Assembly (NCBI GenBank): GCA_964017155.1
Contig: OZ024862.1
Location: forward strand, 36,909,675 to 36,973,674
Length of the DNA stretch: 64,000 nt
From: Oasisia sp. SBJ-2009
Lineage: Eukaryota; Annelida; Polychaeta; Sabellida; Siboglinidae
Reading direction: 5' to 3'
The position numbers and the translations under genes are program-made. Below are positions 12,282-34,287 of the stretch, piece after piece (the stretch's first letter is position 1; each line of letters begins with the position of its first letter). The notes under the pieces were generated by a model, which made no database searches, was not told where the DNA came from, and saw nothing but the letters and a program-made list of their open reading frames with translations.

Positions 12282-12383
12282 CTGAGGATTACCCTTGTAA
12301 CAGAAGACCAACGTCGTGTGGACAAAATCAAAAGTGTGTCGACCAGACTGGGGGCAAATCAAAGTGTACGGCAAAAGAACTAG
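12282..12383 (+). CDS. Half-EGF exon 1 (first visible exon of a repeat-module membrane protein)
   Basis: A 102-bp phase 1-1 exon. The acceptor is gtttcag (AG 12280-12281) and the donor is CTAG|GTACAT. It encodes a module starting EDYPC with four cysteines spaced C-x6-C-x5-C-x9-C (CNRRPTSC, then CVDQTGGKSKC). This spacing matches Cys1-Cys4 of EGF domains, but the Cys5-Cys6 hairpin is absent: after the fourth Cys the exon reads TAKEL and splices out. It is one residue longer at each end than exons 2-9. All exons of this series are symmetrical, so they chain in frame. Upstream exons, including a signal peptide, were not found. The chain is probably extracellular. EGF kinship is inferred from spacing and the CVD-x-PGG signature. 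The gene is unrecognised. Confidence 0.8.
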   Translation: MRITLVTEDQRRVDKIKSVSTRLGANQSVRQKN

Positions 12384-12572
12384 GTACATAGATACGATGT
12401 GTCAGTATTCGTCTAGACATAAATAAGTGATTAGGTCATTTGGATATACAGAGGCGTCGTATCAATGTTCATGTTGGCATGCTAATATAGTAATTATGAA
12501 ACACCATTAAGTTTACGCTAATATGTATTATTACAAGCATGTATACACGCACTCCTGCACACACATGGACAC

Positions 12573-12691
12573 ACGTACACGCACATGCGCACACACACAC
12601 ACTCACACACACACACACACACACACACACACACACACACACACACACACACACACACACACACACACACACACACACACACACACACACA
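12573..12691. repeat. CA microsatellite in intron 1
   Basis: Impure CA/CG/CT dinucleotides lead into an almost pure CA run at 12605-12691. It occupies the same relative place in the intron as CA-rich tracts after several other half-EGF exons (13190, 24739, 25775, 26330, 31475, 32681). Confidence 0.97.
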
Positions 12692-12935
12692 ACATACGAC
12701 CCACAACACATAGAGCAACAACAACACAAACTGAAAAGTCAAATCAAAGTATTTTATGTTTAAATAATGCATTTATATGAAAACAATACCTGCAGTTTAG
12801 CAACATAATTGCTATTTAGAACGATTATTGCATACTTTATCGATGCCAAATGAGAATATGGAGCATATATATATGTTCTTGTTTTGTTTGTTGATCAAAC
12901 CACACCTTTGTGCTTTCCTTTACACAATGTTTCAG

Positions 12936-13031
12936 GGGAATACCCTTGTGCCACAAGACCAAGGGCGTGTGAAGGTCAAACTGAATGCGTCGATCAGCCA
13001 GGGGGAAAGTCAGGCTGTGAGCGTCTTGAAG
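12936..13031 (+). CDS. Half-EGF exon 2
   Basis: A 96-bp phase 1-1 exon with acceptor gtttcag (12934-12935) and donor GAAG|GTACAA. The module begins EYPC and contains CATRPRAC, CEGQTEC and VDQPGGKSGC, then ERLEG. The four-Cys spacing is identical to exon 1. The intron before it is a clean 552-bp unit. The homologous 3' flank runs to about 13340 and is then broken by some 6.8 kb of inserted sequence. Frames starting at ATG here (12828-13070) are out of the spliced frame and are not the product. Confidence 0.85.
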
Positions 13032-13340
13032 GTACAAACTGATCATTGTTCGTTTAGTCATATTATATAAGTGAAGATGTCATTCTGGGTATACAGAGAC
13101 ATCGTTTCAGTGTTCATGTTGGCATGCAACTATAATAATAAACACACGATTTATGTTATGCAAACATATTTTAGTATGTACATGCATCCACGCACACATA
13201 CTCACACGCACACACACATGCGTACATACACACCCAACCACCTGCCACGAAAACACACAGCAACAGTAACACAAACAGACACATCAATCAAAGTATTGGC
13301 TACTTCGATCATTTTGCTTCTATCAAAATATCCCCTTTAA

Positions 13341-14586
13341 CATGCTAATTAGTGTGTGTATAAGTACCCCTTCGTTTTTATGAAATAAACAAGACATTAG
13401 ACAAAAATAGCGTTTTCGATAGCTGAAACGCCAACCACATATCTGAGTTATCGTGACATCCGGAAAAGATTGTAGCTTGAACTTCTCGTTTGATCGAATA
13501 TGAACGGTGAGATCGACCTTTTAGCCGTACATGTTTTACCTAGATATTTAGATGCGAATGCTAGCAGTTTACTATAGTCGCAATTCTTCGATGTTTCGCT
13601 GGGTTTGTTTTGGGTCAAACATGTGTCGCCCGCGTATGTATGCGACCGACTTATTAATGAAACGGGGAAGTACAGAAAGGACCGTAGAAAGACGGAAACA
13701 GCGGCTGATCACGTACGTTAATTTGGGAGAAGGGCTCATGGACTTTATGTCCCAAGTCACATATGTCCTGAACGATATGTACTAAGTTTGTAATTTGGTC
13801 TTTATGTTACTTTTGCACTTTAGAGTTAAGATATGTTGATGATATATTAGCAATAATGCTGGCCGTCTTTGTAGAACATTGGATGTTCATTGCTTTTTTT
13901 AAATGTTACTTAGTATATTTAGTTTTGCAACAAATCGACCACAAATGTTAGGACATAAGTGACTTAAGACATAATGTCTGTAACTCTGGAAAGGTTATAG
14001 ACTTGTGGAATTAACCGAAATATACGACCGGCATTACAAGTGAAATAGACTTCGCCAAATATATTCTAGATAGGTACATAATATGTTATTACTCGGCTTC
14101 AACCATTTTCACGTAGTTTTAATGTTGCGCGTGCCAGATGACAAAATATTTGTTTTTTGATATCACATGTGGCGACGGTATTGTGCGGTGGCGCGGCCGG
14201 CTTAGCCTTAAATTTAGCCCTTACCTTTCCCGAATGGACATAGCTCACTACGCCTACCGTAGTTCCGGCCCGTGCCTTGGGATTGTCATACTATTGTACC
14301 AAACCCCTTGCCCTAGGACACCCATATGAGCGTGCATGGCTGCATGCATGGTACATGCATGCGGTGTGTATGTTATAATAACGTGTCATATGCTGGCCAC
14401 ATCCACTACGTTTTGGTAAATGACATGCCGGCAGTGGACATCCTGATAACAGAATGTTTTGGTAAAACTAATGAAAACAATTAAAGTATGTCGTTATTTC
14501 GTTCTTTTGCACTGCCACCTACGGAAATTCATTGATGTTTGCAGAAATTAATTCAGAATACAAGTAACATTAACAGTTTTATCTAG
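13341..14586. other. Intronic insertion, no recognisable content
   Basis: Sequence between the end of the exon-2 unit and the zinc-finger exon at 14587. Short open frames at 13552-13785 (+) and 14138-14329 (+) have no recognisable motif. A few TATA-like and palindromic words occur (for example tgcatgcatggtacatgcat near 14340). I see no gene. Confidence 0.5.
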
Positions 14587-14823
14587 GTAAAAGGCACAAA
14601 AAGCAGTAGTAGGCGAAAACTGCCACTCACGAAAGGCAAAGTCAAAAGTCTCGTCAAGAAAACAAAATCAGTGGACTGCTTAGTATGTGACGAGAATTAC
14701 GCCGACAGCAGGTTGCATGAACAGTGGATCCAGTGTCAGATGTGCCTCAGATGGGCACACACTGAATGCACCACAGACGACGACACATATCTGGGTCACT
14801 TGTGCGACTCTGACAGCGAGTAG
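14587..14823 (+). CDS. C-terminal PHD-like zinc-finger exon, probably transposase-derived
   Basis: An open frame of 78 codons plus TAG starts directly after tttatctag, a plausible phase-0 acceptor. A basic stretch (SSSRRKLPLTKGK, SLVKKTK) is followed by DCLVCDENY, EQWIQCQMCLRWAHTEC and LGHLCDSDSE-stop. The Cys4-His-Cys pattern C-x2-C...W-x-x-C-x2-C-x4-H-x-x-C resembles the terminal PHD-like finger found in several pogo/Tigger and piggyBac-type transposases and their domesticated relatives. The last CxxC pair is incomplete (only HLC is seen). No transposase catalytic sequence is visible upstream within 1.2 kb. It is either a relic or a 3' exon of another transcript nested in the host gene's intron. 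AATAAA occurs near 15090. Confidence 0.5.
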   Translation, partial: VKGTKSSSRRKLPLTKGKVKSLVKKTKSVDCLVCDENYADSRLHEQWIQCQMCLRWAHTECTTDDDTYLGHLCDSDSE

Positions 14824-32432: not shown

Positions 32433-32680
32433 CAAGAAAACTCGTGTTAATTTGCGATAAATAACTTTGCTGAACTTCAAATCGCAAGTTTATTGTCTAG
32501 CTAGTCCTATGTAGCGGCTTTTAAGATAGAGGAGTGTTGAGTCAGGCTATATGCCTCGCAATTTTTCTGAACTCAAAAGTGGGGGGACAATTCCTATGCT
32601 GTAAACCATTCCTATGCTGTAAACCATGAAAATTGGGGGGCACGCGTCCCCCCGTCCCCCACCGATCGACACCCGTGCTG

Positions 32681-32789
32681 ACACACACACACACACACAC
32701 ACACACACACACACACACACACACACACACACACACACACACACACACACACACACACACACACACACACACACACACACACACACACA
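32681..32789. repeat. CA microsatellite
   Basis: A pure AC run of about 108 bp, followed by accaaccatcaacccccaac, acatacagcaacaacaacaa and cacagagacgtccaatt. That is the conserved post-CA segment of the exon unit, so this is the original microsatellite of the exon-9 intron. Confidence 0.97.
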
Positions 32790-32929
32790 ACCAACCATCA
32801 ACCCCCAACACATACAGCAACAACAACAACACAGAGACGTCCAATTAAAGTTGCACAGCGTATAATATGAAATAATATTCGCTGTGCAACTTCCAATCTA
32901 AGATCTGTTCGTCACAATTAACATAACTG

Positions 32930-33725
32930 GTTCACGCTCGTGCCCCAAATATATTCCATTTGGAGTTCCACAGGGACCTGTCCTTGGTCCTGTTCTTTCA
33001 GCTTATAAACTGCATCACTTAGTCGAGTCATTACTAACCTTAACATAAACCATCATTTATGTTATCACGACACGCAACTTTAGATATCACTTTCACCTAC
33101 GGATATACATACATGTCAACTGTAAATGACTGCCTTACTGGCATCTTGTCGTGGATCGTATCAAGAAAATTGAAGCTTAATATCGACAAAACAGATATAA
33201 TTATTATAGGTACAAAACAACAACGTAACCAGATTGTAGACTACTTTCCAGATACATGAATTGGTAATGATACGTTACCATCATAAACTATTCGAAATTT
33301 AGGTGTTAGTTTTGAAAGTAATTTCAGCTTTTGTCAGTTCATTTCACAAGTATGCAAGTCATGTTTCTATCATATAGGTGACTTCCGTCGACTCCGGCGT
33401 CTTTTGTCTTTATCTTCTGCAAAACAACATCAGTTGCTCTGAATAATAATCGACTTGACTATTGTAATTCCCTTTTAAATAACATTGCCAAAACACCTTT
33501 AGATCATCGGTTTCAAAAAATCCGTGTTGTTCCTAAAACTAAGCTGAATATTGGCAAACGTGCTTTTTTGTGGCTGCGCCAACAATTTGAAATCAACTCC
33601 CTATTGTGATTAAATCTTCTGAAACTATATACACCTTGTGGAAGAATTTCAAAACATACTTGTTTGAATTTGCTTTTCCACAACGGAATTTCGGTGGTTC
33701 CATGCTCCAGTGACATCCCTTGCCT
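32930..33725 (+). mobile_element. CR1/L2-like LINE fragment, sense
   Basis: Blocks in order: PFGVPQGPVLGPVLS (32958-33002), KLKLNIDKTDIIIIGTKQQR (33170-33230), NLGVSFESNFSFC (33296-33334), RLDYCNSLLNNIAKTPLDH in other frames (33450-33510), and a C-terminal tail to about 33725. The catalytic palm is missing and frames are broken. Confidence 0.75.
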
Positions 33726-33815
33726 GTCCTCGTGTATGACTAGCTAAATAATTGTTTTTGCGCCTCTGTGCTTGAATATTTTAAAGGATTTAGGCGCTAT
33801 AGATGTTTTACAACT

Positions 33816-34021
33816 AATATATATACACACACACATATATATATATATATATATATATATATATATATACATATATATATATATATAATACATATATATA
33901 TGTATATATATATGTATACATATATACATATATAAATATATGCATATGTATATATATATATATATATATATATATATATATATATATATATATATATATA
34001 TATATATATATATATATATAT
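33816..34021. repeat. AT-rich microsatellite
   Basis: (AT)n with AC and TGTA interruptions, becoming pure AT from about 33955 to 34021. It lies immediately before the resumed 5' flank of the exon-10 unit. Confidence 0.95.
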
Positions 34022-34185
34022 AATTTAAAGAAAAATGCATATTATGTAGCGAGATCATAACTATTTTGAACGTTTGCCGCAGTATTTTGTCAGTGCGACC
34101 TAGAATATACAGCAAATATATATATTCCTTTTGTTATTTGTTAATCTGTATACACCGATGTTCTTTCCATTGCGCAAACTTCCAG

Positions 34186-34287
34186 CGGAATACCCTTGTG
34201 CCGGCAGACGTAAACCGTGTAAAGGCGTTACTGTCTGCGTCGATCTGGAAGGTGGAAAATCACGATGTGAACAGCCTACAGACACAG
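34186..34287 (+). CDS. Half-EGF exon 10 (last module)
   Basis: A 102-bp phase 1-1 exon with acceptor cttccag (34184-34185) and donor ACAG|GTACGT. The module is EYPC, CAGRRKPC, CKGVTVC, VDLEGGKSRC and then EQPTDTG, two residues longer after the last Cys than its siblings, as might suit a linker to the membrane. The phase-1 end fits the phase-1 acceptor of the transmembrane exon at 35780. Between them lie a MITE and a mariner relic. Confidence 0.83.

Follow-up and report, generated by a model that had tools for sequence, protein, structure and literature searches.

Can one half of an EGF domain serve by itself as the repeating block of a protein? The question is raised by a locus of Oasisia sp. 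SBJ-2009, in a window of 64,000 nt (contig OZ024862.1 of GCA_964017155.1, positions 36,909,675-36,973,674, forward strand). A preliminary description had drawn attention to ten exons in this window, each encoding a module with four cysteines where an EGF domain has six. The ten exons, their phases and their cysteine frame are all present as described, the introns that flank them are homologous, and the frame has been kept by selection. The array is probably part of a larger protein and not the whole of one. Judging from the candidate exons that follow it, the array probably makes up the extracellular part of a protein on the cell surface.

Results

Ten exons carry one cysteine frame

A six-frame scan of the window identified ten plus-strand segments between 12296 and 34268 with the exact spacing C-x6-C-x5-C-x9-C. 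Each segment lies in an exon of phase 1-1 flanked by an AG acceptor and a GT donor (10/10), and every donor begins with GTA. The exons lie on the plus strand at 12282-12383 (M1), 12936-13031 (M2), 20265-20360 (M3), 24533-24628 (M4), 25503-25598 (M5), 26059-26154 (M6), 26428-26523 (M7), 31222-31317 (M8), 31679-31774 (M9) and 34186-34287 (M10). They measure 96 nt in eight cases and 102 nt in M1 and M10, and the pyrimidine tract of M8 is weak (0.42). At each junction between modules a codon is divided after its first base, and 8-9 residues separate Cys4 of one module from Cys1 of the next. The four cysteines, one arginine, one serine and a terminal glycine are invariant across all ten. The exact frame and the shuffling-type phase of the preliminary description thus hold throughout; its signature CVDxPGGxSxC fits letter for letter in M2 alone and is better regarded as a loose consensus.

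In 200 second-order Markov sequences simulated for the region 8001-64000, the frame occurred on average 0.105 times (maximum 2) against ten in the real sequence, and together with compatible splice dinucleotides 0.025 times (maximum 1), again against ten. The sole further strict matches, five on the minus strand, all sit within TG-rich simple repeats, and a low-complexity origin of the modules was rejected. When 264 kb surrounding the array were scanned with a profile (35,000 of these positions being N), the ten modules were recovered at E < 1e-15 and nothing further at E < 0.9, and upstream samples (L021-L030) contained no convincing extra modules. A uniform array of such tiny four-cysteine modules is unusual.

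The preliminary description also held that the Cys5-Cys6 hairpin had been lost in every copy. No canonical six-cysteine EGF pattern occurs in the 264 kb. Exons that might supply the missing pair were sought in four of the nine introns between modules, the shortest ones: those between M1 and M2 and between M8 and M9 hold no phase 1-1 open segment of 30-200 nt with a spaced cysteine pair, and those between M5 and M6 and between M6 and M7 hold two and four, none with a pyrimidine content of at least 0.55 before its acceptor. The uniform four-cysteine frame and the lack of supplying exons in these introns fit the claim as far as the absence of the hairpin goes. Descent from EGF is undecided, and the hairpin may have been lost or may never have been present.

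The array grew by duplication and its frame has been selected

Introns flanking the modules are homologous between copies (families D6, D8 and D9, with pairs up to 81%), so the units that duplicated were exons together with their introns. Where it has not been enlarged, the start-to-start distance between modules is 369-651 bp. The array grew by duplication of these units, and retroelements and simple repeats were inserted later. Trees built from flanks and from exons agree in part, with mostly low support.

Pooled over modules, the proportion of differences is 0.50 at synonymous and 0.34 at nonsynonymous sites. The exons have a mean identity of 0.62, compared with 0.70 for the 59 bases that precede them and 0.61 for the 150 bases that follow, the intron alignments being gapped in a way that favours identity. 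Outside the cysteine frame the protein varies almost freely, since nonsynonymous and synonymous proportions without the cysteine codons are 0.40 and 0.47 and exon identity lies below that of the upstream intron. Adaptive diversification of the modules is possible; we make no claim of positive selection, as synonymous sites diverge above nonsynonymous ones and the gapped alignments inflate intron identity.

The cysteine frame itself has been kept by selection. In neutral simulations along the intron tree, none of 4000 runs retained the 40 cysteines, ten open frames and twenty splice dinucleotides, and the result was the same at full, half and quarter branch lengths (mean 30.6 of 40 cysteines kept at quarter length). 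The simulation is approximate, with a chosen consensus-like ancestor exon and weakly supported tree nodes, and its margin is large.

The module may correspond to the N-terminal half of an EGF domain

An AlphaFold model of M6 is a hairpin (predicted local distance difference test, pLDDT, 87) with weak structural matches to follistatin, EGF and spider-toxin structures. The best follistatin chains superpose on it at a root-mean-square deviation of 1.6-1.8 Å, at E 2.9 or worse. EGF-type Pfam models match four of the ten modules in register, all under cut-off (best E 0.0043; best 17.7 bits against a curated cut-off of 21.5). With four cysteines in every copy, the modules depart from the six that define an EGF-like domain and equally from the six of an inhibitor cystine knot (knottin). 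Searches of Pfam, NCBIfam and PDB sequences gave no confident family, comparison with one SPARC sequence gave a probability of 1%, and a viral structure library yielded no match below E 2.6. We regard the module as probably a shortened EGF domain; Pfam itself is undecided between EGF and delta-ctenitoxin.

Scoring 939 candidates from 5.77 billion predicted proteins gave one match, P0001 (E 2.1e-4; identity 72%, covering 10% of the query), which seems to be an open frame called spuriously on an ENA contig of 566,895 bases carrying one such exon. A search with the P0001 module recovered only P0001. We suspect that spliced animal proteins are underrepresented in this collection, and the lone match therefore says little about rarity. 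A 21-base pattern had no match in the 33 contigs (764 Mb) of the animal's own genome, a result that is uninformative because the pattern fits no module exactly.

Candidate membrane and terminal exons follow the array

Downstream of M10, the segment 35780-36011 on the plus strand would encode a hydrophobic stretch rich in Gly and Ala (hydropathy over 19 residues up to 2.2), then one rich in Ala and Thr (up to 1.6). It would form a transmembrane exon of phase 1-2 with a donor, GTAAGT, at 36012. The donor overlaps an in-frame TAA (36013-36015), so that the protein either ends there or splices on. Single-sequence modelling of this exon gave one long helix, the mean pLDDT of the five models ranging from 82 to 42. 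A separate feature, a 33-bp tandem repeat of 17.5 copies with an 11-codon period, lies 55 bases beyond it (36070-36646) and is stop-free in several frames.

Five continuations, at 37442, 38736, 40359, 42065 and 42365, offer a pyrimidine-rich acceptor, at least 30 open codons and phase 2. Two lie inside a retroelement; those at 37442 and 42365 lie outside. We selected 42065-42254 (plus strand), which would code for an acidic tail containing 11 consecutive Asp and close with the stop TAA, because that stop precedes a polyadenylation-type signal, AATAAA (42280-42285, plus strand), by 26 bases; any of the other four candidates may serve instead. The chosen exon finishes at 42254, the position at which the preliminary description closed the stretch it put forward for transcript sequencing. 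All 12 exons of the resulting model, ten modules plus the hydrophobic and terminal exons, are open and in phase.

Satellite and retroelements surround the array

On the 5′ side, a 41-bp satellite, CCTCTACCAACAACACATTCCGTAGGTTACCATCTCACCGA, occupies 1-7995 and runs on for about 113 kb before the start of the window (L001-L010, L021 and L024). It extends over about 120 kb in all, with interruptions, and ends 4 kb before the module array. The interval from the satellite to M1 is in part retroelement: 8036-8476 weakly matches reverse transcriptase, and remnants of an RTE element at 11415-12267 reach to 14 bases from the M1 exon. Islands within the satellite (-55 to -30 kb) contain 13 signal-like candidates, none convincing, and two short stretches that match repeats of the window.

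On the 3′ side, two RTE retroelements (38300-41660 and 43213-46633) are 90-92% identical in three pieces, and the first carries a frame of 891 codons (38774-41449) with reverse transcriptase and endonuclease domains. The last intron of the model would contain this copy. EGF-like endings near 38594 were discarded because they belong to the same element, which matches its partner at 43213-46633. A second retroelement-like sequence occurs at 27859-28778, between M7 and M8, and in opposite orientation at 48374-47448 (74% identical). Tandem arrays with long open frames also occur. Those of 12 bp related to CGATCGGTGTCG (53475-53894, 54938-55524 and 57880-60060) are open for as many as 824 codons on either strand and look like repeat artefacts; arrays of the 9-bp TTCGATACC and the 6-bp GAGAGG (37681-37903 and 55659-56183) have several frames open; and upstream arrays (L026:1-2153 and L025:2862-4634) have long open frames in all three plus-strand frames (672-717 codons in L026, up to 302 in L025).

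Discussion

We propose, with a probability of roughly 45%, that the locus holds the 3′ part of a large animal gene whose product is a type I membrane protein. Half-EGF modules with two disulfides each would make up its stalk, and a transmembrane exon and a tail that is acidic and rich in Asp would follow. Its ectodomain would comprise the ten tandem modules, each a twisted beta hairpin with predicted Cys1-Cys3 and Cys2-Cys4 bonds, as in the N-terminal half of EGF domains or in that half of a follistatin domain which is EGF-like. The array would have grown by unequal crossing-over of exon-plus-intron units, and its phase 1-1 symmetry would allow units to be added, lost or skipped in frame. Most likely the modules would form a stalk presenting variable surfaces on a fixed cysteine frame; that such a stalk might serve adhesion or ligand recognition is a guess. 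Our confidence in the full model is held down because its terminal exon is one of five candidates. A bolder extension is that this protein represents a lineage-restricted class of cell-surface recognition molecules whose ectodomain contains two-disulfide half-EGF modules and nothing else, the array having been enlarged through unequal duplication of exons and diversified at almost every surface position while the cysteine frame stayed fixed, with the result that individuals differ in copy number and surface. We regard this extension as decidedly improbable.

Several observations weigh against the type I membrane protein. The interval 7900-12290 yielded neither a 5′ exon nor a signal peptide with a phase 1 donor. 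The hydrophobic exon was chosen by eye and the terminal exon picked among five; neither has recognised relatives (for the hydrophobic exon, no protein match at E 1 or better), and the proposed exons and their splicing into one transcript are read from genomic sequence. The near-equality of nonsynonymous and synonymous differences outside the cysteine codons leaves constraint on individual surfaces not evident. At the level of fold, no structure match to the M6 model falls below E 0.001, and Foldseek ranks a spider toxin first (E 1.0, TMq 0.64). Every Pfam match to the modules is under cut-off; among them the delta-ctenitoxin model, which matches three of the ten modules, is ahead of EGF at E 0.0029, and FOLN returns no match to any module up to E 10.

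Much of this evidence invites other explanations. The missing 5′ exon, the RTE sequence that comes so close to M1, the interrupted satellite upstream and the retroelements lying between modules would all fit a gene fragment that is dying or died recently, a once functional array severed from its promoter and signal exon by satellite and retroelements while its frames are still intact. Against a dead fragment stand the 12 model exons, all open and in phase, and the simulations, which exclude neutral drift across as little as one quarter of the divergence between copies; any death of the gene must therefore be recent, and we consider this account unlikely. The spider-toxin matches raise instead an origin from a cystine-knot peptide, with a two-disulfide remnant strung into an array. 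It retains some weight since in Pfam its top score is a little ahead of EGF's, and we nevertheless find it quite unlikely: the knottin matches are likewise under cut-off, EGF-type models match four of ten modules in register, and follistatin structures show lower deviations at similar TMq. One-domain phase 1-1 exons, moreover, are a habit of EGF domains.

The symmetry of the exons can also be read as that of a secreted multi-module protein or an alternative-exon cassette, whose modules would be skipped or used alternatively and whose hydrophobic exon would fall outside the main transcript. Any skip would keep the frame, as all ten exons are phase 1-1, and the introns are very uneven. The hydrophobic and acidic exons, for their part, join in phase, the donor is strong and a polyadenylation signal is present, and we judge a secreted or cassette form very unlikely.

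If the type I membrane protein is confirmed, the N-terminal half of an EGF-type fold would be usable alone as a repeating block, as it is used singly inside follistatin domains. The locus would then provide a natural test of the minimum size of a shuffled disulfide module, and also of tandem exon duplication under a fixed cysteine frame as a means to diversify a surface protein.

Arrayed EGF modules, some of them incomplete, occur in several known proteins. The tick membrane proteins Bm86 and ATAQ, as described in PMC2998001, have multi-EGF ectodomains with most EGF domains on single exons, a glycosylphosphatidylinositol or transmembrane anchor, and six or seven full EGF domains with one partial; they share by description the plan of an anchored protein with single-exon domains, and differ from the present array in that only one domain is partial, whereas all ten modules here have four cysteines. 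Tenascin-X contains incomplete EGF-like repeats, according to PMC1578592, and by that description one or two partial repeats stand beside full ones, in contrast to the uniform array here. Among EGF domains of the fibulin, NELL and Notch type, a NELL1 match shares Cys-x6-Cys-x5-Cys and a CVNLPG loop (E 0.22), and the group shares one module per phase 1-1 exon and the weak in-register Pfam matches. Unlike these domains, the modules of the array lack Cys5 and Cys6, have Cys3-x9-Cys4 and score under cut-off throughout. No description of an array of four-cysteine EGF modules was recognised in the literature searched, which is weak evidence of absence.

The closest precedent is the four-cysteine EGF-like half (FOLN) of follistatin and SPARC domains, as in follistatin, SPARC and Fstl1. 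In follistatin domains this half is followed by a Kazal part; here the half is repeated alone. PMC2895596 describes the EGF-like half as a hairpin with two disulfides, 1-3 and 2-4, so that folding of a four-cysteine half-EGF by itself has precedent. The SPARC peptides given there have Cys3-x9-Cys4 and, if the alanine of the first peptide stands for Cys2, which is our reading, Cys2-x5-Cys3. Both spacings are found in 10/10 modules of the array and, with the superposition of the model hairpin, make up the likeness; on the same reading of Cys2, the spacing from Cys1 to Cys2 is 6 in the array and 4 in SPARC. The novelty of the Oasisia locus lies in half-EGF or FOLN-like modules used alone in an array, the kind of module itself being known.

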